NCBI RefSeq assembly: GCF_027925245.1
Contig: NZ_BSDP01000001.1
Location: 620,001-684,000 of the forward strand
From: Agromyces rhizosphaerae
GTDB lineage: Bacteria; Actinomycetota; Actinomycetes; Actinomycetales; Microbacteriaceae
Direction: 5' to 3'
Length of the DNA stretch: 64,000 nt
Part shown: one piece after another, positions 51,370 through 64,000 of the stretch
Layout of the letters: every line of letters starts with the position of its first letter
Numbering within the stretch: the stretch's first letter is position 1
Made by a program: the position numbers and the translations under genes
The notes under the pieces: generated by a model
The model's input: the letters and a program-made list of their open reading frames with translations, nothing else
Told to the model about the DNA's origin: nothing
Database searches by the model: none

Positions 51370-53130
51370 TCAGACCTCGGTGTGGCCGAGGTCGGGCTGC
51401 GCGGCGAATCTCGCGGATGCGTCGGCCATGGCCTCGAACTCGAGCACGACCAGCTCGTTCGAGCCGGCGCGCGTCACCGGTCCCGGCACGACGAGCGTGC
51501 GCTGAGGGCCGCGCCGCCAGTAGCGTCCGAGCAGGAATCCGTTGACCCAGACGACGCCCTTGCCCCAACCGGTGGTGTCGAGGTAGAGGTCGGCGGGCGC
51601 CTCGAGCGTGAACCCGGCCGTGGCGAATCGTGGTCCGGATACCGACGTCGCACCCGACTCCTCCGTGCGCACCAGTTCGAGCCCCGGCACCCGGTCGAGG
51701 TCGAGCGGCCGCACGGTCCACCCGCGTACCGGCTCGCCGTCGACGGCGATCCCGCCGATGAGGCCCTTGTGCTCGCCGATCCGCGTGCCGTAGTTCACGC
51801 GCCCCTGGTCCTCGACTACCAGGGTGAGGTCGCCGGACGCCCGCGGCAGCGCGATCGCGCGCTCGTGCGCGTCGCGCGCGAGCACGCCGACGGGTTCGCC
51901 GTCGAGCAGTACCCAGGCGCGATCGCGCACCTCGTCGCCGACGACGAGCGTGCCGGGCCGCGAGCCGTCGAGGCGTGCGTCGAACACTGCGAACCCCCGG
52001 TCGTGCCCGAGGTCGTCGAAGGTCGGCAGGTCAAGGTGAGCGGATGCCTCGCCCAGCCCGTCGAGCACGTCGAGCAGGCTCGGACCCGGCCGGAGCGCCA
52101 CGGTCAGCTCCGGGGCATCCGGCCGCCCCTCGGGCACCTCGGCGGGCACCTCGGCGTAGCGTGCGATCACCTCACGGAACGCGAAGTACTTCTCGGTCGG
52201 GTATCCGCTCTCGTCGAGCGGGGCGTCGTAGTCGTAGCTCGTCGTGATCGGCGCGTAGCGGCCCTTGTCGTTGGCGCCGTTGGTCAGGCCGAAGTTCGTG
52301 CCGCCGTGGAACATGTAGACGTTGACGGACCCGCCGGCGGCGAGCAGCGCGTCGAGCTCGGCGGCCGAGGCGGACGCATCCGTCGTGTGGTGGTGGGAGC
52401 CCCAGTCGTCGAACCAACCGCACCAGAACTCCATGCACATCAGCGGCCCGGTGGGCTGGAACTCGCGCAGCGTCGCGAGGCGCTCGGTGGTCCGCGACCC
52501 GAACGAGCCGGTCAGGTGCAGGCCCGGCAGGCTGCCGTCCGCGAGCATCTGCGGGGTGGGCTGATCGATGGTGTTGAGGGGCACGGTGATGCCGGACGCG
52601 CGGGTGGTCTCGACGAGCGCCCGCAGGTAGTCCTTGTCGGACCCGTACGCGCCGTACTCGTTCTCGATCTGCACGAGGATCACCGGGCCGCCGCGGTCGA
52701 CCTGGCGCGGCGCGACGATCTCGTAGACGCGACGCAGGTACGACGTCACCGCCGCGAGGTAGTGCGGCTCGCTGCGGCGCACGCCCACCTCGGGGTCGCG
52801 GAACAGCCATGCGGGGAGGCCGCCGTTGTCGAACTCGGCGCAGATGTACGGACCGGGGCGCACGATCGCCTGCATGCCCGCGGCCGCGACGAGGTCGAGG
52901 AAGCGTCCGAGGTCGAGGCCGCCGTCGGCCACCCACTCGCCGCGGCGCGGCTCGTGGAGGTTCCACGGCACGTAGGTCTCGATGGTATTGAGTCCCATCA
53001 GCCGCGCACTGCGGATGCGGTCGGCCCAGAGCTCGGGGTGCACGCGGAAGTAGTGCAGCGCGCCCGCGAGGATGCGGAACGGATGCCCGTCGAGCTCGAA
53101 GTCGGTGGGGCCGATGACGAAGCGGCTCAT
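51370..53130 (-). CDS. GH35 beta-galactosidase
   Basis: 586-residue intracellular beta-galactosidase. TIM barrel with acid/base Glu158 (VQIENEYGAYG), nucleophile Glu234 (MEFWCGWFDDWG) and the RPGPYICAEFDNGGLPAWL signature, followed by beta-jelly-roll domains ending in WVNGFLLGRYWRRGPQ. GGAGC precedes the ATG. It is the last gene of the operon beginning at 56523. Distinct from the GH35-like/DUF5597 enzyme at 15947-17461, this one is a canonical GH35 with ligand-binding jelly-rolls. Confidence 0.94.
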   Translation of the reverse strand: MSRFVIGPTDFELDGHPFRILAGALHYFRVHPELWADRIRSARLMGLNTIETYVPWNLHEPRRGEWVADGGLDLGRFLDLVAAAGMQAIVRPGPYICAEFDNGGLPAWLFRDPEVGVRRSEPHYLAAVTSYLRRVYEIVAPRQVDRGGPVILVQIENEYGAYGSDKDYLRALVETTRASGITVPLNTIDQPTPQMLADGSLPGLHLTGSFGSRTTERLATLREFQPTGPLMCMEFWCGWFDDWGSHHHTTDASASAAELDALLAAGGSVNVYMFHGGTNFGLTNGANDKGRYAPITTSYDYDAPLDESGYPTEKYFAFREVIARYAEVPAEVPEGRPDAPELTVALRPGPSLLDVLDGLGEASAHLDLPTFDDLGHDRGFAVFDARLDGSRPGTLVVGDEVRDRAWVLLDGEPVGVLARDAHERAIALPRASGDLTLVVEDQGRVNYGTRIGEHKGLIGGIAVDGEPVRGWTVRPLDLDRVPGLELVRTEESGATSVSGPRFATAGFTLEAPADLYLDTTGWGKGVVWVNGFLLGRYWRRGPQRTLVVPGPVTRAGSNELVVLEFEAMADASARFAAQPDLGHTEV

Positions 53131-53155
53131 GTTGCTCCAGTGGTGGGGACGGGAT

Positions 53156-53182
53156 GGGCCGGCCGGATGTCCCGGCCGGCCC
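53156..53182 (-). terminator. Intercistronic stem-loop after the binding-protein gene
   Basis: Perfect 11-bp stem GGGCCGGCCGG / CCGGCCGGCCC with a 5-base loop, 20 bp past the binding-protein stop. Third such stem-loop at this position in the window. Confidence 0.75.
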
Positions 53183-53201
53183 ACGCCCGATCGGTGTGCT
53201 G

Positions 53202-54548
53202 CTACTCGCTGACCGTGAAGCCCTGCGAGTTCCCGTACTCGACGAGCTGCGACTGCCATGCGGCGAGTCCCTCCTCGAGCGGCGCGGTGTTCAGGTAGGA
53301 CTGGCCCACGGTGTCGCCGAAGATGCTGTTCGCGTAGACCTGGAACGGCAGGTACTGCCACCCCGCGGAGACGTCCTTCGACGCCTGCGTGAGCACCTCG
53401 TTGATCTGCTGGCCGCCGAAGTAGTCCGACTCGAAGGCGAGGAACTCGGGGTCCTCCAGCTCGCCGGTGGTCGACGGGAAGCCGCCCGCCTCCAGGAAGA
53501 TCGCGATGCTCGCCGGGTCGCTGTTCAGCCAGCGCAGGAACGCGGCGGCCAGCGCCGGGTTCTCGCTCTGCTGCGTGACCGACTGGCCGCCGCCGCCGTT
53601 CTCGGCCGAGACCGGGCTGCCGTCGTAGGTCGGCATGGGTGCGACGCGCCAGTCACCGGCCGCGTCGGCGACGCTCGACTCGAGCACGCCGGGCATCCAG
53701 GCGCCGGTCACGAGGGTCGCGATCGAGCCGTCGGCCAGACCCTGGTACCACTCGTCGGTCCAGCCGGGCGTGTCGGAGAGCAGTCCCTCCTCGACCAGCT
53801 GGTCCCACACACCGGTCCACTGCTGGGTGCCCTCGTCGGCCAGGTCGATCGTCACGTCGGTGCCGGAGACCTGGAACGGACGGCCGCCGGCCTGCCAGAT
53901 CATGCTGGTGGTGAAGCCGGCGTCACCCGTGTCGGAGGTGATGAACTTCGACGGGTCGGCCTCGTTCAGGGCGCGTGCGGCGTCGAGGTACTCGTCCCAC
54001 GTGGTGGGCACCTCGATGCCGTACTCGTCGAACACGCTCGCGTTGTAGAAGAGCGCCATGGGGCCGGAGTCCTGCGGCAGGCCGACGAGCTTGCCGTCGA
54101 CGTTCACGGCACCCCAGGTGGAGGCGCTGTACTGGTCCTCGAGCGAGTCGAGGCCGTACTCCGAGAGGTCGAGCAGCGAGTCCGTCAGCGCGAACTGCGG
54201 GATGGCGTAGTACTCGATCTGCACGACGTCGGGGGCGCCCGAGCCCGCCTTGATCGCGTTCTGGAGCTTGGTGTACTCCTCGGTGTTCGTCCCCGCGTTG
54301 ACGAGTTCGACGTCGACGTTGGGGTAGGCCTCCTCGAACGCGGCGACCTGCGCCTCGGCGCTGGGGGTCCAGCTCCAGTACGTGATGCTGCCGCCGGCCT
54401 CGAGCGCGGCGTCGAGATCGTCGACGCTGCCGCCCGACGATGTGGCGGAGTCGCCGCCCGTCGAGCACGCGGCGAGCGCGCCGACCGCGAGCAACGCCGT
54501 GGCGGCGATGGTGACCCGGCGCCCGAGAGCGCTGCGGAAGATGGTCAT
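53202..54548 (-). CDS. Sugar ABC transporter substrate-binding lipoprotein
   Basis: 448-residue family-1 solute-binding protein; lipobox GALAAC (Cys28), ITYWSWTPSAEAQVAAFEEAYPNVDVELVNAG, GSGAPDVVQIEYYAIPQF, and C-terminal WQYLPFQVYANSIFGDTVGQSY. It is clearly paralogous to the binding protein at 18900-20222, consistent with beta-galactoside ligands for both. Followed by a stem-loop. The upstream gap to the permease is 104 bp, so it could have a secondary promoter. Confidence 0.92.
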   Translation of the reverse strand: MTIFRSALGRRVTIAATALLAVGALAACSTGGDSATSSGGSVDDLDAALEAGGSITYWSWTPSAEAQVAAFEEAYPNVDVELVNAGTNTEEYTKLQNAIKAGSGAPDVVQIEYYAIPQFALTDSLLDLSEYGLDSLEDQYSASTWGAVNVDGKLVGLPQDSGPMALFYNASVFDEYGIEVPTTWDEYLDAARALNEADPSKFITSDTGDAGFTTSMIWQAGGRPFQVSGTDVTIDLADEGTQQWTGVWDQLVEEGLLSDTPGWTDEWYQGLADGSIATLVTGAWMPGVLESSVADAAGDWRVAPMPTYDGSPVSAENGGGGQSVTQQSENPALAAAFLRWLNSDPASIAIFLEAGGFPSTTGELEDPEFLAFESDYFGGQQINEVLTQASKDVSAGWQYLPFQVYANSIFGDTVGQSYLNTAPLEEGLAAWQSQLVEYGNSQGFTVSE

Positions 54549-54652
54549 GTGAGTTCCCTTCACTTCGTTGTGCCGTCTTGCGGTGTGGTGGTTCCGGGGC
54601 CAGGACGCTCCGGTCGGGCGGTCGATCGTGCCGTCGATGCAGTGCCGCCCGG

Positions 54653-55576
54653 TCACTGCTTGACGCTCCCGGCGCTGAGCCCCGACTGCCAGAACCGCTG
54701 GAGGCCGAGGAACGCGACGACGATGGGGATGATCGTGAGGAGGGACCCCGTGATCACCAGGTTGTAGATGGGCTGCGCGCTGACGCCCGTCGCCTGCGCG
54801 TTCCACTGGTTGAGGCCCACGGTGAGCGGGTACCAGGTCGGGTCGCTCAGCATGATGAGCGGCAGGAAGTAGTTGTTCCAGGTCGCGACGACCGTGAACA
54901 GCAGTACCGTGACGATGCCCGGTGCGAGCAGGCGGATCGAGATCGTGAAGAAGGTGCGGAACTCGCCGGCTCCGTCCATCCGCGCCGCCTCGAGCAGTTC
55001 CTTCGGCACCGAGTCGACCGCGTACACCCAGATCAGGTAGAGCCCGAAGGGACTGATGAGCGACGGGATGATGATCGCCCACGGGGTGTTGGTGAGCCCG
55101 AGCTGGCTGAACATGAGGAAGGTCGGCACCGCGAGCGCCGTGCCGGGAACGGCGATGGCACCCAGCACGACGGCGAAGATCGCGCGTCGGCCGCTGAAGC
55201 GGAACTTCGCGAGCCCGTACCCGGCGAGGGTCGCGAGCAGGGTCGCTCCGCCCGCCCCGACCACGACGTACAGCAGCGTGTTGCCGAACCAGCGCAGGAA
55301 GATGCCGTCGTCGTAGGTCAGCGTCTCCCAGATGTTCGAGAACAGGGCGAAGTCGTCGCCGAACCAGAGGCCGAAGGTCGAGAACAGGTCGGCCTGGGTC
55401 TTGGTCGCGTTGATGACGAGCCAGGCCAGGGGCACGAGGCTGTACAGCGCGAACACGACCATGAGGAGCGTGAAGGCGATCGACTTGCGGGGGCGCAGCG
55501 GCGAGGACTCGCGCCGTTGCGATGCACGGGCGGCGGGGCGCCCGGTCCCGGGGCGCTTCGCGGTGGCGATCGTCAT
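54653..55576 (-). CDS. Carbohydrate ABC transporter permease (MalG type)
   Basis: 307-residue permease, six helices, EAA loop ELLEAARMDGAGEFRTFFTISIRLLAPG. Strongly similar to the permease at 20293-21222, down to LDGAGEFRTF and the C-terminal FLGLQRFWQSGLSAGSVKQ. Its ATG overlaps the previous stop as ATGA. Confidence 0.92.
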   Translation of the reverse strand: MTIATAKRPGTGRPAARASQRRESSPLRPRKSIAFTLLMVVFALYSLVPLAWLVINATKTQADLFSTFGLWFGDDFALFSNIWETLTYDDGIFLRWFGNTLLYVVVGAGGATLLATLAGYGLAKFRFSGRRAIFAVVLGAIAVPGTALAVPTFLMFSQLGLTNTPWAIIIPSLISPFGLYLIWVYAVDSVPKELLEAARMDGAGEFRTFFTISIRLLAPGIVTVLLFTVVATWNNYFLPLIMLSDPTWYPLTVGLNQWNAQATGVSAQPIYNLVITGSLLTIIPIVVAFLGLQRFWQSGLSAGSVKQ

Positions 55577-56523
55577 CGGTCCTCCTTCCGCGAGCCGCGG
55601 AGTTGCACGACGTAGGCGATCACCGCGGTGATCACGCCCATGACGATGGCGACGGTGGCCGAGTAGTTGTACTGCTGGCCCGCGAACGAGAGGTTGTAGG
55701 CGTACATGTTGGGTGTGAAGTAGGTCGTGATGACGTTCGGCGCGAGCGTGCGCAGGATGTTCGGCTCGTTGAACAACTGGAAGCTGCCGATGATCGAGAA
55801 GATCGTGGCGATCACGATCGCGCCGCGGAGTGCCGGCAGCTTGATCGCGCGGACGACGCGGAACTGACCCGCGCCGTCGATCGCGGCCGCCTCGTAGAGG
55901 TCGGTGGGGATCACGCGGAGCGCCGAGTAGAAGATCAGCATGTTGTAGCCGACGAACTCCCAGGTGACGATGTTGCCGATCGACACGAGGATCCAGGAGC
56001 CCGCGAACGGGGTGACGACGTCGCCGCCGAGCGCGTCGTTGACGTTCGCGACGAGACCGAACTTGTCACCGAAGATGAAGCCCCACATGAGCACGGCCAC
56101 GACGGCCGGCACCGCGTACGGCAGGAAGACCACGATGCGGAAGAAGTTCGACGCGTGCAGTCGTGCGCTGTCGATCGCCAGCGCGGCGACCAGCGCGAGC
56201 GCGAGCATGACGGGCACCTGCACGAGCAGGAACAGCACGACCCGGGCGAAGCCCTCCCAGAACTGGCCGTCCTGCAGCAGCTGCACGTAGTTGTCGAACC
56301 CGACGAACGCGTTGCCTCCGACGATCTGCTCGCGGAAGAGGCTGAGGAACAGCGAATAGACCACCGGTGCGATGAACACCAGCAGGAAGACGACGAGGAA
56401 CGGCGCCGTGAAGGCCAGCCCCTTCCATTCGCTGCGATTGCCGCGCAGCGGTCGTCGAGCGGATGCCGCAGGGGTGCGTTCCGTCGGCGGCGGTGTCGTC
56501 GTGCGTTCCGACGTCATTGTCAT
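55573..56523 (-). CDS. Sugar ABC transporter permease (MalF type)
   Basis: 316-residue permease, first gene of the operon, six helices and EAA loop DLYEAAAIDGAGQFRVVRAIKLPALRGA. Paralogue of the permease at 21219-22154. It begins 21 bp downstream of the nearest LacI operator (56544-56559), so its expression is controlled by the divergent LacI. Confidence 0.92.
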   Translation of the reverse strand: MTMTSERTTTPPPTERTPAASARRPLRGNRSEWKGLAFTAPFLVVFLLVFIAPVVYSLFLSLFREQIVGGNAFVGFDNYVQLLQDGQFWEGFARVVLFLLVQVPVMLALALVAALAIDSARLHASNFFRIVVFLPYAVPAVVAVLMWGFIFGDKFGLVANVNDALGGDVVTPFAGSWILVSIGNIVTWEFVGYNMLIFYSALRVIPTDLYEAAAIDGAGQFRVVRAIKLPALRGAIVIATIFSIIGSFQLFNEPNILRTLAPNVITTYFTPNMYAYNLSFAGQQYNYSATVAIVMGVITAVIAYVVQLRGSRKEDR

Positions 56524-56543
56524 CGGTGTTTCCCATCTCCTCC

Positions 56544-56593
56544 ATGTTTACGTCAACATGGCTGTCGGAACCGTAGCATGTTTACGTCAACAT
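56544..56593. promoter_or_regulatory. Tandem LacI operators and promoter, beta-galactoside locus
   Basis: Two copies of ATGTTTACGTCAACAT (56544-56559 and 56578-56593), each a near-palindrome, spaced 34 bp start to start. On the minus strand the -10 is TACGGT (56570-56575), so the upstream copy fills the -35/-10 spacer and the other sits just after the start site. Spacing of about three helical turns would allow cooperative binding. Confidence 0.85.
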
Positions 56594-56636
56594 CGGAAAC
56601 ACTACGATGAACACGGGGCCGGAGAAGGAGGCGACG

Positions 56637-57665
56637 ATGTCTGCATCGACTCCAGCCGCCACGCGCAGACGGGGCGTCTCGATGGCCGACGTCGCACGCG
56701 AGGCGAACGTGTCGGGCCAGACGGTCTCGCGGGTCGCCAACGGCCGCGAGAACGTCGACCCCGAGACCCGCGCCCGAGTGCTCGCGGCGATGCACCGGCT
56801 CGGCTACCGGCCCAACAGCGCGGCCCGCGCGCTCCGCTCCGGCCGCTTCCACAGCATCGGCGTGATCATGTTCACGCTCTCCAGCTTCGGCAACATGCGC
56901 ACGCTCGACGCCGTCGCCAGCGCCGCGGCCGACGCCGGGTACTCCATCACGCTCATCCCCGTCTCGCACCGCACCGGCGGCGAAGTCTCCGAGGCGGTCG
57001 ACCGCCTGAGCGAGGAAGCCGTCGACGGCGTGATCATGGTCGTCGAGGCGCACCTGCTCGACGAGCGCGAGATCGATCTGCCCGCCGGGCTGCCGGTCGT
57101 GGTGGTCGACTCCAACGCCCGGGACCGATTCCCGGTCGTCGACACCGACCAGGCCCACGGTGCCCGACTCGCGACGCGCCACCTGCTCGACCTCGGGCAT
57201 CGCACCGTGCACCACGTCGCGGGACCCGAGTCCTCGTTCTCGGCGATGCACCGCCGCGAGGCGTGGGAGCGTGAGCTCCGCATGGCGGGCGCCCCCGTCC
57301 CTCCGGTGCACGTCGGCGACTGGACGAGCGAATCGGGTCATGAGATCGGCCGCGCGCTGGCATCCGACCCCGACGTGACCGCGGTGTTCGCGGCAAACGA
57401 CCAGATGGCCCTCGGAGTGCTCCGAGCGATGCACGAGGCCGGACGAGCAGTTCCCGCCGAGGTCAGCGTCGTCGGCTTCGACGACATGGAGGAGGCGCGA
57501 AGCTTCTGGCCGCCGCTGACCACCGTGCGCCAGTTCTTCGGCGAGGTCGGCCGACGCTCGGTCGAGGCCCTCATCCGCGAGGTCGAGGAGGGCGAGCTGC
57601 ACGGCGTGGAACTCGTGCCCACCGAGCTCGTCGTGCGCGAGAGCACCGCCCCTCCCCCGTCCTGA
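56637..57665 (+). CDS. LacI family regulator of the beta-galactoside locus
   Basis: 342-residue repressor; HTH SMADVAREANVSGQTVSRVANGRENV, hinge NSAARALRSGRF, C-terminal GFDDMEEARSFWPPLTTVRQFFGEVG. AAGGAGG upstream decides for the ATG at 56637 over that at 56607. Divergent from the transporter operon with two operators between, so it controls both. The ligand is probably a beta-galactoside or its product. Confidence 0.93.
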   Translation: MSASTPAATRRRGVSMADVAREANVSGQTVSRVANGRENVDPETRARVLAAMHRLGYRPNSAARALRSGRFHSIGVIMFTLSSFGNMRTLDAVASAAADAGYSITLIPVSHRTGGEVSEAVDRLSEEAVDGVIMVVEAHLLDEREIDLPAGLPVVVVDSNARDRFPVVDTDQAHGARLATRHLLDLGHRTVHHVAGPESSFSAMHRREAWERELRMAGAPVPPVHVGDWTSESGHEIGRALASDPDVTAVFAANDQMALGVLRAMHEAGRAVPAEVSVVGFDDMEEARSFWPPLTTVRQFFGEVGRRSVEALIREVEEGELHGVELVPTELVVRESTAPPPS

Positions 57666-58115: not shown

Positions 58116-58140
58116 CGCGTCGGGCGCTCGGGTCGCCACG

Positions 58141-58191
58141 GAGTACGCGAAGTGCGGGAACGCATCGGTGATTCCCGCACTCTGCGTACTC
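58141..58191. terminator. Bidirectional hairpin between convergent genes
   Basis: 20-base arms, GAGTACGCGAAGTGCGGGAA (58141-58160) and its near complement (58172-58191), 18 of 20 positions paired, 11-base loop. It lies between the SnoaL-like and SIS-domain genes and can terminate both. Confidence 0.7.
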
Positions 58192-58197
58192 TCTCGC

Positions 58198-59292
58198 TCA
58201 GCGCGTCAGCGTCACCTTGCTCAGCCCGAGCGGGCGGTCGGGGTCGAGCCCGCGCCGCACCGACAGGTCGGCGGCGAGCAGCTGCAGCGGGAGGATCTCG
58301 AGCATCGGCACGAGCTCGGGGTGCGCAGCGGATGCGGCGTCGAGCGACCAGGTCGCTCCGGCGACCGTGCCCGGGCCGATCTCCAGCACGCGCGCGCCGC
58401 GGGCGAGTGCGGCCTCGGAGAAGTCCCCGACCGACTCGCGGCCACCCGGTGAGGCGGTCAGCGCGACGACCAGGGTCCCGGCGTCGACCTGGCCGAGCGG
58501 GCCGTGCGTGGCATCCGCGGCGCTCCAGCCGGACGCGGCGACGCCGCTCGTCTCCATGAGCTTCAGCGCCCCCTCCTTCGCGGTGGCCATCGAGTACCCG
58601 CGGCCGACCAGCACGATGCGCTGGACGTCGAGCACGTCCGCGACGATCGAGCCGACGAAGCTCGGCAGTCGATCGAGCAGGGCTCGCGCGGCCCTCGCCG
58701 CATCCGCCGTCTCGGCCGCGAGCGCGTCGAGCGATGCACCGGCGACCGCACGCGCGAGGGTGCGCACCGCCAGCAGCTCCGCGGTGTAGCTCTTCGTCGC
58801 CGCGACCGAGCGCTCGGGGCCGGCCGCGAGGTCGAGGTGCAGGTCCGCCGCGTCCGCGAGCCCGCTGGCCGCGTCGTTCGTCGCAGCGACGAGCGGCAGA
58901 CCGGCCTCGCGCAGCGCCGCAGCGGTCGCGATCAGGTCGGGCGACCGCCCCGACTGGGAGAGCGCGAGCTGGACGCCGCGCGGATACGCCTGCGTCGTGC
59001 CGAACACGCTGTGCGTGCTGGGCGTGGTGAGCATCGCCGGAATGCCGAGCACGTTCTGCACCAGATACTGCCCGTAGATCGCCGCGTGGTCGCTCGACCC
59101 CCGTGCGACGAATGCGAACAGTTCGGGCCGCGCTTCCCGAACGAGTGCGACGGCCCGCTCCCAGGCGTCGCGCTGCGAGGGAATAAGCCCGGCCCAGCGC
59201 TCCGGCTGCTCGTCGATCTCGGCGCGCATGAGCGCTCCGCCCAGCGGGGCATCCGTCTCGCCCTCCATCACCGGCCGGGCACCCCCGCTCAC
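58198..59292 (-). CDS. SIS-domain aminosugar isomerase/deaminase (GlmS/NagB-II-like)
   Basis: 364 residues with two SIS domains resembling the isomerase half of GlmS: RGSSDHAAIYGQYLVQN, SQSGRSPDLI (sugar-phosphate loop), AGPERSVAATKSYTAEL, and in domain two GRGYSMATAKEGALKLMET and HGPLGQVD. There is no glutaminase domain, so it should deaminate or deglycosylate rather than synthesise (NagB-II, AgaS or FrlB-like). Last gene of the operon; its GTG overlaps the ATPase stop. With a ROK kinase upstream in the operon, an aminosugar 6-phosphate is the likely substrate. Confidence 0.88.
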   Translation of the reverse strand: MSGGARPVMEGETDAPLGGALMRAEIDEQPERWAGLIPSQRDAWERAVALVREARPELFAFVARGSSDHAAIYGQYLVQNVLGIPAMLTTPSTHSVFGTTQAYPRGVQLALSQSGRSPDLIATAAALREAGLPLVAATNDAASGLADAADLHLDLAAGPERSVAATKSYTAELLAVRTLARAVAGASLDALAAETADAARAARALLDRLPSFVGSIVADVLDVQRIVLVGRGYSMATAKEGALKLMETSGVAASGWSAADATHGPLGQVDAGTLVVALTASPGGRESVGDFSEAALARGARVLEIGPGTVAGATWSLDAASAAHPELVPMLEILPLQLLAADLSVRRGLDPDRPLGLSKVTLTR

Positions 59293-60052
59293 GAACTCAG
59301 CCCCGTGATCATCGACACCAGCTCGTTGTGCGAGGTCTCGACGACCCGCCGGGTGCCGACCTGCCGGCCGCGCCGCAGCACGGTGACCCGGTCTGCGATG
59401 CGGAACACCTGCTCCATGTTGTGGCTCACGACGAGCACCGCCGCGCCGCGCTCCTTGAGCTTCAGGATGAGCTCCTCGACCTTCGCGGTCTCGGCGACGC
59501 CGAGCGCGGCGGTCGGCTCGTCCATGAGCACGAGCCTGCTGGCCCAGTGCGTGGCGCGCGCGATGGCGATCGCCTGGCGCTGCCCGCCCGACAGGTCGCC
59601 GAGCGGCGACTTCGCCGAGGGGATGCGCACGTCGAGGTCGTCCACCAGCTGCTGCGTCTGCCGGGCCATCTCGGCGCGGTCGAGCAGCCCGAGCGGCGCC
59701 TTCCGCAGCTCGCGCCCGAGGAACAGGTTCATGTAGACGGGCTGCAGGTCGACCAGCGCGAGGTCCTGGTAGACGACCTCGACGCCGTTGGCACGCGCGT
59801 CGGACGCGTCGCGGAACGCCACCTTCTCGCCACCGAGGCGGATCTCTCCGTCGGTCGGCTGGTGCACGCCCGAGATCATCTTCACGAGCGTGGACTTGCC
59901 CGCGCGCCGTTGTCGCCGACGAGGGCGACGACCTCCCCCGCCTCGACCTCCAGGTCGAACCGCTCGATGGCGACGATGGCGCCGAAGTGCTTGCTGATGC
60001 CCGAGAGGCTGAGCGGATGCTCCGCGGTCGCCGTCTGCTCGTGTTCGCTCAT
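59289..60052 (-). pseudogene. Sugar ABC transporter ATPase, frameshifted in Walker A
   Basis: A single-domain sugar ABC ATPase of about 254 codons in two frames. The first frame reads from the ATG at 60052 to VALVGDNGA and then leaves frame; the second begins with the KMISGVHQP that should follow. Around 59900-59907 the sequence has gccGCGCGCcg-like repetition: removing one CG (or GC) pair restores GDNGAGKSTLVKM. Everything after is intact (Q-loop YQDLAL, signature LSGGQRQ, DEPTAAL, VSHNME). So either a recent 2-base duplication or a sequencing error in a GC tract. Both flanking gene overlaps (ATGA, GTGA) are normal, suggesting that the gene is otherwise under selection. Confidence 0.88.
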
Positions 60053-61275
60053 CGTGCTCGCTCCATTCCGTCGATCGCGTCGGCGACGCCGAGCGGTCGT
60101 GATCCGTCGGCCGACCAGATGCCCTCGAGCCTCGGGGCGCCGCTCGCCAGTCCGCTGATGCCCGCGGTCAGCGCCCGGGTGACGAACACCTGCGGGCGGA
60201 ACCCGAACACCACGGTGTCGCCGGGCTGTGCGGCCCCGGCGGGCACGGCCACGGTCGCGTAGTAGTCGATCGCCTCGGCTGCGGGCATCTCCACCGGGCG
60301 AGGGGTGACGGATGCCGCGTCCTCATCGGCCCGGACGATGAGTGCCTCGGTAGCGAGGTCTCCCAGCACCGGGTCGACGTAGAGCCCGCCGCCGAACACG
60401 TAGGCCCGGTCGTTCCAGAGGTGCGAGACCTCCGACACGTAGGCGATGGCGGGCTCCTCGACGAGGTCGCGGGCAGCGTGCAGCGGAGTCGTGCCGGTGA
60501 GCCCGTGCCCCGGCTCGACCTGGGTCGCGCCGGCCTCGGCGAGGCGCTCGAGCGCAGCGACCGACGTGGTGCCCGGCGCGTTCAGCTCGACGTCTGCGAA
60601 GCCGGCCGCCTCGAGCTCGCGCTTCGCGCGGGTGAGCGTGGTGAGGTTCGGCGTCGAGACGACGTCGCCGGTGCCCGCATCGAACAGCGTTGCGGGGAAG
60701 CTCGTGACGCCCGCGAACCGCAGGCCGGGGATCGCGTCGACGCGGCGCGCGGCGTCGACGACCTGCTCGGCCGGGAACCCGCCCTCGTGCCCGGTGTAGA
60801 ACCGGTCGCCCTCGCCGACGATGCGCAGCAGCACGTCCTGCGTGCGACCGGCGGCGACCGACGCGGCGCCGGCCTCCTCTGCCTTCTGCTCGTCGAACAC
60901 GGTCCAGTACAGGGGCGCGAGCGCGGCGGCCTCGGCGGCGCGGTAGCGCGGGATCTGCACGAGGTGGCCGACGTGCCCGGCGGCGAGCCCGCCCGTCGCG
61001 GCGGCGATGGCGCACTCGAGGTCGACACCGACGGCGTGCCTGATGCCGCCGGCGCGGATCGCCCTCGAGGCATCCGGATTGCGGCCGATCTGCTTGGTCA
61101 TGGCGAATGCGGTGAGGCCCAGCCGGTCGGCCTCGGCGCTGACGGCGGCGGCGTTGCGCTCGACGGCGTCGAGGTCGATCACGTAGGTGTTCGGCGGCAG
61201 CGCGCCGGAACGGTGGAAGGCGACGGCGGCGTCGATGAGCTTCGGGTTGCGGCGTCGGAGCAGCGGCAGGAACAC
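60049..61275 (-). CDS. YhfX-type PLP-dependent enzyme (amino acid racemase fold)
   Basis: 408-residue fold-type III PLP protein. N-terminal MFLPLLRRRNPKLIDAAVAF, the PLP lysine in AMTKQIGRNP (Lys61), QIPRYRAAEAAAL, GVTSFPATLFD, EPGHGLTGT and FGFRPQVFVTR reproduce the pattern of E. coli YhfX. Such enzymes share the alanine-racemase barrel and may racemise or deaminate an amino acid; the YhfX reaction is not something I can state. GTG start at 61275, 3 bp past the permease stop. In E. coli yhfX neighbours php, a phosphotriesterase homologue, and this operon also carries one. Confidence 0.85.
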   Translation of the reverse strand: MFLPLLRRRNPKLIDAAVAFHRSGALPPNTYVIDLDAVERNAAAVSAEADRLGLTAFAMTKQIGRNPDASRAIRAGGIRHAVGVDLECAIAAATGGLAAGHVGHLVQIPRYRAAEAAALAPLYWTVFDEQKAEEAGAASVAAGRTQDVLLRIVGEGDRFYTGHEGGFPAEQVVDAARRVDAIPGLRFAGVTSFPATLFDAGTGDVVSTPNLTTLTRAKRELEAAGFADVELNAPGTTSVAALERLAEAGATQVEPGHGLTGTTPLHAARDLVEEPAIAYVSEVSHLWNDRAYVFGGGLYVDPVLGDLATEALIVRADEDAASVTPRPVEMPAAEAIDYYATVAVPAGAAQPGDTVVFGFRPQVFVTRALTAGISGLASGAPRLEGIWSADGSRPLGVADAIDGMERAR

Positions 61276-61278
61276 GGG

Positions 61279-62259
61279 TCAGCTCCCCTTCTTGCCGCGG
61301 AGCGACAGTGAGACGGCGATGAGGATGATGACGCCGCGCACGATCTCCTGCTGCGCCACGGTGAGACCGGCCAGGAGCAGGCCGTAGTTGATCATGCTCA
61401 TGAAGAGGCTGCCGACGACCGCGCCGATCATCGACGCCCTGCCGCCGGTGAGGGCGGTGCCGCCGACGATGACCGCGGCGAGCACGCTCATGAGGTCGGT
61501 GGTGCCGAGCGTGTAGGTGGCGCCGGCGAGTCGCCCCGCGTAGAGCAGACCGGCGAGGGCGGCGGTCGCACCGCTCAGCATGAACACGGCGATGCGGATG
61601 CGGGTGACCTTGATGCCGCTGACGCGCGCCGCCGAGGCGTGGTTGCCGACCGCGAGCACGTGGGCGCCGAACCGGCGCTGGCGCAGCACGTGCCAGCCGA
61701 TGGCGGCGACGACCACCGACCACCAGATGTAGATCGGGATGCCGAGGAGCGCCCCGCCGCCGAAGGTCCAGACGAAGGTCGGGTCGGTCACGGGCACCGA
61801 CTGCAGGTTGGTGATCTGCTGGGCGAGGCCGGCGACGAGGCCCATCGTGGCGAGCGTGACGAGGAAGGACGGCAGTCGCACGAGGGTGATGAACAGGCCG
61901 TTGACCAGACCGATCGTGGCACCGACGGCGAGCCCGGCGAGTGCCGCGACCCACCACATGCCGGTCGCCTGCAGCGTCACCGCTGCCGACAGGGCCGCGA
62001 GTGCGACGGTCGAGCCGATGGAGAGGTCGATCTCGCCGAGGCTCAGCACGAAGACGGTGCCGACGGCCATGATCGTGATGGGCGTCGCCTGCGTGATGAT
62101 GTTCACCAGCGTCGTGCCGTTGAGGAACGTCGAACCCTGGGTCGCGGCGAAGTAGGCGAACACGACGACGAAGCCGATGTAGACGACGGAGTTCCGCCAG
62201 TTCCACGAGCGGGGCACCACCCCCTTCGCGGTGGGGGTCGTGGCGGGTGCGGTGGTCAT
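61279..62259 (-). CDS. Sugar ABC transporter permease (RbsC/FrcC type)
   Basis: 326-residue permease of BPD_transp_2, about ten hydrophobic segments, SLGEIDLSIGSTVALAALSA motif and LMSVLAAVIVGGTALTGGRAS. The ATG overlaps the ROK stop as ATGA. With a single-domain ATPase downstream it resembles the fructose/ribose FrcABC arrangement, which uses one permease gene as a homodimer. The binding protein is missing from the window and should lie beyond the edge. Confidence 0.9.
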   Translation of the reverse strand: MTTAPATTPTAKGVVPRSWNWRNSVVYIGFVVVFAYFAATQGSTFLNGTTLVNIITQATPITIMAVGTVFVLSLGEIDLSIGSTVALAALSAAVTLQATGMWWVAALAGLAVGATIGLVNGLFITLVRLPSFLVTLATMGLVAGLAQQITNLQSVPVTDPTFVWTFGGGALLGIPIYIWWSVVVAAIGWHVLRQRRFGAHVLAVGNHASAARVSGIKVTRIRIAVFMLSGATAALAGLLYAGRLAGATYTLGTTDLMSVLAAVIVGGTALTGGRASMIGAVVGSLFMSMINYGLLLAGLTVAQQEIVRGVIILIAVSLSLRGKKGS

Positions 62260-63185
62260 GCGGGGACTCCTTCGTGGGTGCGGTCCGTGGCGGCGTCGCT
62301 CGCGAGCCGCAGCGCGCCGAGCACGGGCGCCGCGCTGCCGAGCGCGCTGATGGTGACGGGGAGCCGGCCGCGACCGAGTCGGTCGAGCCAGCCGAGGATC
62401 GCCTCGAGCAGTTCGGGTCGCGAGCCGATGCCGCCTCCGAGCACGACTCGGCCCGGGTCGACGATGGCGTCGACGGCGGCGATCGCGTGCGCGATCCAGC
62501 GGGCCTCCTCGTCGAGCGCAGAGACGGCGCGCGGGTCGCCGTCGGCGGCGCGGGCGAAGACCTCGCGGGCCGTTGCGCCCGGCGCGTACCGCGCGGCGAG
62601 CGCGTCGCCCGCGACGACCTCCTCGAGCGCGCCGCGCCGGTGCGCGGCCGGGTCGAGCGGGTCGGCGCCGAACGGCAGGTAGCCGATCTCGCCCGCGGCG
62701 TTGCCCGCGCCGTGCACGAGCTCGCGGCCGAGCACGAGGCCCATGCCGATGCCGGTGCCGATCGACACGAACGCGAAGTCGTCGTGCTCGCGACCGATGC
62801 CGGCGGCGAGTTCGCCGAGCGCGGCGACGTTCACGTCGTTGTCGAGCACCACGGGGCATCCGACCGCGAGCCGGAGTTCGTCGACCAGGCTCACCGAGCT
62901 CACGTCACCGAGGTTCGGCGCCTGGTCGAACCCGCCCTGGCCGGCGTCGGGCACGCCCGCGCCGCCGATGCCGATGGCGGCGAGGTGATCGAGTGGCACG
63001 GATGCCTCGCGGCACAGGTCGCGCACGAGCTCGGCGAGCTGCGTGACGAGCGCACGCCCGCCCTCGCTCGCGGTGGGGCGCTCGAGTTCCGCGAGCGCGC
63101 CGGGCGCGTCCGGCACCGCAATGCCGGCGCGCACCTTGGTGCCGCCGAGGTCGATGCCCACCATGACGCGGTCGGGCGCGCTCAT
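62256..63185 (-). CDS. ROK family sugar kinase lacking the zinc motif
   Basis: 309-residue ROK-fold protein: phosphate-binding GIDLGGTKVRAG, GIGGAGVPD, catalytic-loop NDVNVAALGE and GTGIGMGLVL. The typical zinc site (GH followed by CxCG..C) is absent: the segment reads GNAAGEIGYLPFGADPLDPAAHRRGALEE, with GY instead of GH and no cysteines. The catalytic Asp of DNDVN is kept, so kinase activity is plausible, though some zinc-less ROK proteins are regulators; there is no HTH here. ATGA overlaps link it to both neighbours. Confidence 0.88.
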   Translation of the reverse strand: MSAPDRVMVGIDLGGTKVRAGIAVPDAPGALAELERPTASEGGRALVTQLAELVRDLCREASVPLDHLAAIGIGGAGVPDAGQGGFDQAPNLGDVSSVSLVDELRLAVGCPVVLDNDVNVAALGELAAGIGREHDDFAFVSIGTGIGMGLVLGRELVHGAGNAAGEIGYLPFGADPLDPAAHRRGALEEVVAGDALAARYAPGATAREVFARAADGDPRAVSALDEEARWIAHAIAAVDAIVDPGRVVLGGGIGSRPELLEAILGWLDRLGRGRLPVTISALGSAAPVLGALRLASDAATDRTHEGVPA

Positions 63186-64000
63186 GCGGCGACCTCCAGC
63201 AGACGGGCCGGCGTGCGGGCGGTCATCTGCTCGATCGCGTCGTCGGACACGCCGCGGGCCGTCAGCTCCGGCAGGAAGCGGTCGGCGAGGTAGGCGTAGC
63301 CGAGCTGCCCGTGGGTGCCGGCGTTCATCCAGACCTCGGCGCCGGTGAGGTCCTGCGCGAGCAGGATGCGGTCGGCGTAGCCGTCGGCGACCAGCTCGGC
63401 GACGAGGTCTGCACGCCCGGCGTCGGAACGCGCGAACGCGCGCTTGCCGAACTCGCCGTCGGCGCGGTCGGGCACCGGGCCGAGGAAGAAGTCCCAGACC
63501 TCCTTGCCGATCGTGTCGATCGCGATGCGCACGCCGCGATCGATCACGCTGCGTGCGGCATCGACGCTCAACTGCGTGTCGAGATGACCGATGACCACGC
63601 GGTCGAGGTCGGCGCCCTCCGACGCGAGCAGGTCGACCTGCTCGTGCGCCATGGTGCCGTGCGTGGTGTGGGTCATGATCGTCAGGCCCGTCTCGCGGTG
63701 GGCGCGGGCGACCGCGCGGAGCACGCGGTCCTCGAACGGGGTGATCTCGTCGAGGCTGGTCGCCTGCTCGCCGTAGACCCCGGCGCGGACGCCACTGTCG
63801 CCGATGCCCGTCGTCGCGTCGGCCACGAAACGGCGGGTGAGGTCGTCGAGCGACGCCTCGCGCGCCCAGGCCGGTGCGTACGACTCGAGGTAGAGCGCGG
63901 TGCCGCTGACGATGTGCAGGCCCGAGCGCTCGGAGATCTCGGCCAGCAGGGCGGCATCCGCCCCGTCCGCATCGCGCCCGACGACACCGTACGGAGAGAG
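63182..64000 (-). CDS. Phosphotriesterase-family (Php-like) metallohydrolase, partial
   Basis: C-terminal 272 residues; the frame stays open to the window edge, so the N-terminal part including the first HxH metal pair lies outside. Remaining features are TIMTHTTHGTMAHEQ, VVIGHLDTQ, the RILLAQDLTG metal Asp and VEQMTARTPARLLEVAA, the closing signature of the phosphotriesterase-related family (E. coli Php, lactonases, parathion hydrolases). Promoter-proximal gene in the visible operon. Natural substrates of Php-type members are mostly unknown. ATGA overlap with the ROK gene. Confidence 0.88.
   Translation of the reverse strand, partial: LSPYGVVGRDADGADAALLAEISERSGLHIVSGTALYLESYAPAWAREASLDDLTRRFVADATTGIGDSGVRAGVYGEQATSLDEITPFEDRVLRAVARAHRETGLTIMTHTTHGTMAHEQVDLLASEGADLDRVVIGHLDTQLSVDAARSVIDRGVRIAIDTIGKEVWDFFLGPVPDRADGEFGKRAFARSDAGRADLVAELVADGYADRILLAQDLTGAEVWMNAGTHGQLGYAYLADRFLPELTARGVSDDAIEQMTARTPARLLEVAA

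Follow-up and report, generated by a model that had tools for sequence, protein, structure and literature searches.

Operon layout and regulation

The window analyzed here is a stretch of 64,000 nucleotides from Agromyces rhizosphaerae (bases 620001-684000 of its genome, a single contig of 3,607,789 bases), at the end of which lies an operon that combines a YhfX-family pyridoxal phosphate (PLP) enzyme with a hydrolase, a kinase, a SIS protein and parts of an ATP-binding cassette (ABC) importer. Six genes, all on the minus strand, encode a PTE-family hydrolase, a ROK kinase, a permease, YhfX, an ABC ATPase and the SIS protein (Table 1). A first-pass annotation of the window had read these as six overlapping genes of a candidate sugar-amine pathway. 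All six are present and four of the five junctions in the window overlap by 4 nucleotides, but the permease and YhfX genes are separated by a gap of 3 nucleotides and the ATPase is not one open frame. The same annotation had suggested extending the sequence past position 64000 for a binding protein and a regulator; both are found there, so that what lies upstream is the operon's own binding protein and regulator and not the genes of an unrelated pathway. The full order is the regulator (on the opposite strand), then binding protein, PTE, ROK kinase, permease, YhfX, ATPase and SIS. The N-terminus of the binding protein reads LLLTGC, which by eye we judge to be a lipobox.

Table 1. Genes of the YhfX operon in the window and just past its edge
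Feature	Position	Strand	Supporting match
Double-SIS NagB-II/GlmS-isomerase-like protein, 364 aa counted from first GTG	58198-59292	-	
Single-domain CUT2-type ABC ATPase gene, frame broken in Walker A codons	59289-60052	-	
YhfX-family PLP enzyme, 408 aa	60049-61275	-	Pfam YhfX-like_C E 6e-23, Ala_racemase_N E 3.8e-18
CUT2-type ABC permease	61279-62259	-	Pfam BPD_transp_2 E 4.5e-38
ROK-family sugar kinase, 309 aa	62256-63185	-	Pfam ROK E 3.3e-43; best PDB match glucokinase 2qm1 E 1.9e-32
PTE-family (Php/PTER-like) metal hydrolase, 335 aa	63182-64189, start beyond window edge (64000)	-	Pfam PTE E 2.3e-52
Peripla_BP_4 binding lipoprotein, first gene of operon	genome C1 684268-685401, past window edge		
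ROK-family regulator, divergent from binding-protein gene	genome 685600-686760, past window edge		

In this assembly the ATPase frame is broken inside the Walker A codons, at about 59889-59917, while each of the 25 other loci examined (27 rows) has an uninterrupted Walker A motif in a single frame. Either the importer is disabled in this strain or the break is an assembly error.

An alignment of eight loci shows the invariant TTGACTTTG ahead of the binding-protein gene, and the same regions carry a 23-bp palindrome (TTTGNTT-N9-AANCAAA) overlapping a promoter-like hexamer pair, which in the window genome is also found by a promoter scan. The palindrome is present in 13 of 37 loci, with one site in each, and does not occur in one simulated set of 669,259 bases; it is missing from the remaining 24, including all eight alphaproteobacterial loci. 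In all six operon-bearing Agromyces genomes searched (a count that leaves out the seventh, G011) it occurs exactly once per genome, ahead of this operon, which points to a regulon of one operon. The divergently encoded ROK protein may be a repressor that binds this palindrome over the promoter and in this way controls the operon.

Distribution and conserved core

Relatives of YhfX (E <= 1e-30 in the genus search) were counted at four levels, the window's own genome being included each time: 7 of 60 genomes at genus level, 13 of 398 at family level (in 11 of 85 genera), 20 of 394 at class level and 5 of 396 at phylum level, where at most four candidates were scored per genome. The scan that gave 20 loci found them in Agromyces, Mycetocola, Microbacterium, Herbiconiux, Homoserinimonas, Arthrobacter, Planosporangium and other actinobacteria. 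The gene contexts of 59 loci were read by profile searches, and gene content, linkage, conservation, gene replacements, catalytic residues and the single palindrome per genome were computed directly. The 13 family-level matches comprise 12 loci with the ABC importer (importer-type) and one with an APC-family permease (APC-type, L069), and the 20 class-level matches comprise five importer-type loci, 13 classical yhf operons and two yhf-like clusters with a SIS gene nearby (L102 and L103). YhfX relatives are also seen in 19 plasmid records. Eleven of their contexts were read, five Aminobacter and three Escherichia records being left out: those from Nitratireductor (two), Aminobacter, Rhizobium (three), Ruegeria and Sinorhizobium are importer-type, that from Embleya is APC-type, and those from Cetobacterium and Vibrio are yhf-type.

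The 38 importer-type loci come from actinobacteria and alphaproteobacterial plasmids and include several near-duplicates (e.g. L034/L037 and L094/L095). The permease gene directly precedes YhfX in 37 of them and the ATPase gene directly follows it in 37, the exceptions being cut by contig ends (L044 begins inside YhfX and L040 stops after it). The binding protein is present in 34, the ROK regulator in 32, the ROK kinase in 28 (one of these matches, in L028, is weak and in two pieces) and SIS in 23. The invariant core is thus YhfX with its flanking permease and ATPase. The kinase and SIS protein, both part of the pathway in the first-pass annotation, do not belong to it: the kinase is absent from all eight alphaproteobacterial versions and SIS from six of them. 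The annotation's expectation that the association would extend beyond close strains is borne out: the gene set recurs in many actinobacterial genera, and a shorter version is found on alphaproteobacterial plasmids.

Several loci show further variations. A second YhfX copy, 47-48% identical to that of the window, lies beside an importer-type operon with M20 in two loci (L041 2754-3941 and L043 11028-12221). The mixed clusters L102 and L103 encode Php, YhfU, YhfW, YhfX and then a YhfS-like protein, with SIS and ABC ATPase matches further on; in L102 a phosphoenolpyruvate-utilizing enzyme, a class-III aminotransferase and a GlmS/NagB-II-like SIS protein were identified. In a Rhizobium plasmid copy with M20 (L121), one substrate-binding protein, YhfX and ATPase are each divided into several pieces; the ROK kinase is split in a metagenome-assembled genome (L046).

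A predicted pathway for an N-acylated conjugate

With a little less than even confidence, we propose from these sequence comparisons that the operon encodes a self-contained catabolic pathway whose substrate is an N-acylated sugar-amine conjugate, most likely of a sugar with an amino-acid-like amine. The conjugate would be imported by the CUT2-type ABC importer with its lipoprotein receptor, after which the cytosolic PTE-family metal hydrolase, or elsewhere an M20 ArgE/DapE-like protein, would take off the N-acyl cap by amide hydrolysis. YhfX would form a PLP aldimine with the freed amine and carry out carbanion chemistry at that carbon (decarboxylation or epimerization), the ROK kinase would phosphorylate the sugar, and the SIS protein, as an isomerase-deaminase of the GlmS/NagB-II type, would split the sugar C-N bond to yield fructose-6-phosphate and the amine. 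We infer each of these reactions, the order of the last three steps and the nature of the substrate. The sugar side of the scheme is backed by the sugar-type binding protein, the ROK kinase, the ROK regulator and the GlmS/NagB-II-like SIS protein. A more specific version, which we regard as possible but rather doubtful, is that YhfX acts in the manner of a decarboxylase on the amine of a conjugate between sugar and amino acid, imported in N-acylated form and unmasked by the PTE-family protein as an amidase, and that the NagB-II-like enzyme then frees an amino acid or amine, not ammonia, from the sugar phosphate.

The hydrolase position is filled in two ways. Among the importer-type loci, 22 encode a PTE-family protein and ten an M20 protein, none encodes both, and six encode neither; five of the latter are on short contigs (L022, L027, L040, L044 and L045), and for L119 the search found no upstream genes. 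A quick YhfX tree calls for two or more switches between PTE and M20. For the three M20 proteins scanned, the best match is to ArgE/DapE deacylases, under the model cut-off (157-171 vs 217.6 bits), and their PDB matches are to DapE. In the PTE proteins the metal-ligand positions H18, H20, E137, H170, H198 and D276 (numbered from the second start) are invariant in 19 of 19 rows, Escherichia coli Php included, although the window protein reaches only 136 bits against the NCBIfam equivalog model of E. coli Php (PRK09875, cut-off 486) and so falls outside it. PTER, a mammalian protein that by name belongs to the same family, hydrolyzes N-acetyltaurine and N-acetyl-beta-alanine, and its modeled metal ligands are H26, H28, E169, H201, H230 and D298 (PMC11374699, PMC13311154); compared without alignment, the six ligands of the two proteins agree in kind and in order, the Glu included. 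Beside the PTE gene in the Cetobacterium yhf operon lies a gene annotated as 'amidase family protein' (L099 3994-5025), which has no NCBIfam match at E 1e-5; it hints at amide chemistry around YhfX in another setting.

The transporter is likewise exchanged. In L049, L069 and L122 profile searches find no part of an ABC importer, and an APC-family amino-acid permease stands beside YhfX and SIS, with the kinase present in L069 and L122 only; these loci have no PTE, Php or M20 profile match even at E 10. The three permeases are 49-66% identical to one another. When one of them was searched against 384 genomes of the class (E <= 1e-70, no more than four candidates scored in each), six matches appeared, of which only that of L104 exceeds 60% identity, the other five being at 36-39%; L104 has the ABC importer, PTE, kinase, SIS, YhfX and the APC permease in one operon. 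From these four loci, the substrate of the APC permease might be a conjugate whose amino-acid head is free, and that of the ABC importer an N-acyl-capped form that then needs a deacylase. Taken together, the hydrolase and transporter exchanges suggest an N-acylated sugar-amino-acid conjugate that is de-acylated in the cell.

The window's YhfX has the Ala_racemase_N and YhfX-like_C domains of its family and matches E. coli YhfX over its full length; the latter is also its only PDB match at E <= 0.01 (4kbx, E 7.8e-72). K61 and E254 do not vary among the 24 rows and are shared by the E. coli protein, and K61 is the candidate PLP-binding lysine. E254 lies within an EPG motif, which a multiple alignment places over the EPG of LysA and the RPG of Alr and DadX; YhfX therefore does not have the arginine that marks alanine racemases in this motif. 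The residue at this position presumably meets the PLP pyridine nitrogen; fold-III decarboxylases have Glu there, whereas alanine racemases have Arg. With Glu at this place, YhfX is less likely to carry out a classical racemase reaction. In the same alignments the catalytic lysines of Alr and LysA do not fall onto K61, so that only the EPG/RPG motif is used here and the argument is one from motif and not from structure; a comparison by hhalign of the YhfX alignment with single Alr and LysA sequences gave nothing significant. Nine of the plasmid-borne YhfX relatives (H1, H2, H4-H9 and H13) are annotated as 'alanine racemase', the EPG motif having been seen in other aligned YhfX rows and not in these proteins. 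The first-pass annotation had YhfX act on the amino acid released by the SIS protein. It probably does act on a freed amine, but on one exposed by removal of the acyl group, and perhaps at a stage when the sugar is still attached. A quick maximum-likelihood tree of 56 YhfX rows separates 41 importer- and APC-type rows from 15 yhf-type rows with a Shimodaira-Hasegawa-like approximate likelihood-ratio (SH-aLRT) support of 98, while long branches (L122, L099, L028 and others) and the odd composition of some yhf-type rows make individual places in it unsure.

The closest families of the SIS protein are NagB-II and GlmS. Its best PDB matches include 3hba (E 4.3e-43) and 8eol, a glucosamine-6-phosphate deaminase (E 4.4e-43), and it matches the NCBIfam model NagB_SO3506 with E 8.2e-54 (the Rhizobium copy reaches 275 bits). 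E239, H255 and K351 (alignment numbering), which correspond to the catalytic set of the GlmS isomerase, are kept in 18 of 18 operon rows. In the ROK kinase D117 is invariant in 17 of 17 rows.

Several observations weigh against this proposal. None of the operon's members has a known activity. The SIS protein, at 183 bits, is far under the NagB-II cut-off of 430 and hence not a NagB-II equivalog. NagB itself has matches in ten of ten Agromyces genomes tested (seven over the cut-off), with or without the operon, and so does not discriminate. SIS is missing from 15 of the 38 importer-type loci, a number that includes some short contigs, and the alphaproteobacterial versions lack the kinase in eight of eight loci and SIS in six of eight, which leaves the sugar part unsupported there. 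The distinction between the permeases is drawn from four loci, in one of which, L104, the APC permease and PTE occur together. On the side of the hydrolase, PTER is reported to be inactive on N-acetyl-alpha-alanine, and other characterized PTE-family relatives are described as lactonases, which would also suit a lactone substrate.

Alternative pathways and known systems

The same genes could instead serve one unusual N-acetylated amino sugar, which would be imported, deacetylated by PTE or M20, converted to glucosamine by YhfX acting as a PLP-dependent epimerase on the carbon that bears the amine, phosphorylated by the ROK kinase and deaminated by SIS to fructose-6-phosphate. Such a route uses every gene in a single chain and agrees with the sugar-type importer, the ROK regulator and a SIS protein nearest to glucosamine-6-phosphate deaminase. 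NagB is also present in two Agromyces without the SIS gene (G032 and G017), in which the only full-length SIS relatives found are distant and in GlmS-length frames (29% and 25% identity). We nevertheless consider it unlikely, given the replacement of the sugar importer by an amino-acid permease in three loci, and we know of no PLP fold-III amino-sugar epimerase.

Also improbable, in our estimate, is the catabolism of Amadori compounds (fructosamines) as in the frl system, with a kinase, a SIS deglycase and YhfX racemizing the released amino acid. A kinase and SIS pair is present, and E. coli frlABCDR does adjoin yhfS-yhfZ, as the first-pass annotation had stated, although the two lie on opposite, converging strands and are therefore separate units. 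FrlA, moreover, falls in APC-type amino-acid transporter models, and APC permeases occur at some of the loci described here; these, however, are not FrlA-like, as only one of the three matches it (21% over 146 residues, E 4e-4). The likening of the SIS protein to an FrlB-type deglycase is not supported. FrlB and the window protein both match GlmS and NagB-II chains, more or less strongly, but the top eight PDB matches of FrlB, which include a chain named fructose-amino-acid-6-phosphate deglycase, are all absent from the 30 matches of the window protein, and the two align only over short stretches (25% over 114 residues, E 5e-9). FrlB, the only deglycase aligned, keeps the equivalents of E239 and H255 and has Glu in place of the C-terminal Lys conserved in the operon proteins. 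A deglycase of the frl type is thus disfavored by the NagB-II/GlmS likeness, the unshared PDB matches and this lysine, and the racemization step by the Glu of YhfX at the position of the racemase Arg.

A lactonase role for the hydrolase, whereby the PTE protein opens an imported sugar or amino-sugar lactone, appears still less probable. Several PTE-family relatives are described as lactonases, and the window protein itself has a weak NCBIfam match to phospho-furanose lactonase (60 bits vs a cut-off of 630); against this, M20 proteins of the ArgE/DapE deacylase kind replace PTE, and the Glu ligand stands where PTER also has Glu. That there is no joint pathway at all, the sugar importer carrying unrelated enzyme genes by chance, would fit the loss or exchange of genes in some lineages but is very improbable in view of the same central gene order in two phyla, the overlapping genes and the single dedicated palindrome.

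A sugar-amine pathway is accordingly the best broad reading of the operon, and it is partly supported. The coherent, dedicated operon and the succession of hydrolase, kinase and SIS protein for an imported conjugate, as first annotated, fit the observations, while the version with an frl deglycase is disfavored; a step of N-deacylation is new to the scheme.

The operon resembles several known systems without coinciding with any. It shares with the E. coli yhf operon (yhfSTU-php-yhfWXYZ) the combination of YhfX, a Php-type PTE hydrolase and a (putative) transporter in one unit. The E. coli unit, however, lacks an ABC importer, kinase and SIS and has YhfT, YhfU, YhfS and YhfW, for which profile searches find matches in yhf-type loci and none in the window locus or the importer-type loci; its YhfX also lies across the branch with support 98 from the importer- and APC-type proteins. 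The fructosamine pathways (Frl, Fra and Gfr) likewise bring a transporter, a kinase and a SIS enzyme to bear on a sugar-amine conjugate, but differ from the window operon in that here SIS is NagB-II/GlmS-like with a C-terminal Lys, the kinase is of the ROK family, and YhfX and PTE or M20 are added. The NagB-II deaminases and the nag pathway supply the nearest SIS relative, the pairing of ROK kinase with ROK regulator and the logic of N-deacylation; to our knowledge, YhfX and PTE play no part in the nag pathway. The literature searched, a scope outside which preprints and most subscription journals lie, holds no description of this operon. The gene set is not named in the accessible text of a paper on tobacco Arthrobacter and santhopine (PMC8262997), and the accessible parts of papers on FraB (PMC9609667) and FrlP (PMC12632257) contain nothing further that bears on it.

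Two features flank the operon in the window. A strong hairpin at 58134-58191 (-39.8 kcal/mol, z -5.07) lies in the gap where the SIS gene and a small open reading frame on the plus strand converge; it has matches of 77-84% identity at about 17 other places in the genome, many on both strands, and is thus a dispersed palindromic repeat, which perhaps also serves as a terminator. The genes at 51370-57665 encode a GH35-type beta-galactosidase, a CUT1-type ABC importer and a LacI-type regulator, as judged by eye from their translations, and look like a sugar unit separate from the SIS/YhfX operon.

YhfX and Php are genes without an assigned function in E. coli, and are termed 'putative' in its RefSeq record. 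The other genes of the operon described here limit the possible substrates of YhfX, and the exchanges of PTE with M20 and of ABC importer with APC permease point to testable classes of substrate. If the version with decarboxylase-type chemistry is true, YhfX would gain its first function, which would in turn offer a lead on the yhf operon of E. coli. Confirmation of a function would also correct the 'alanine racemase' label carried by YhfX relatives, and would reveal one more way in which bacteria that live in soil or with plants make use of sugar-amine conjugates.

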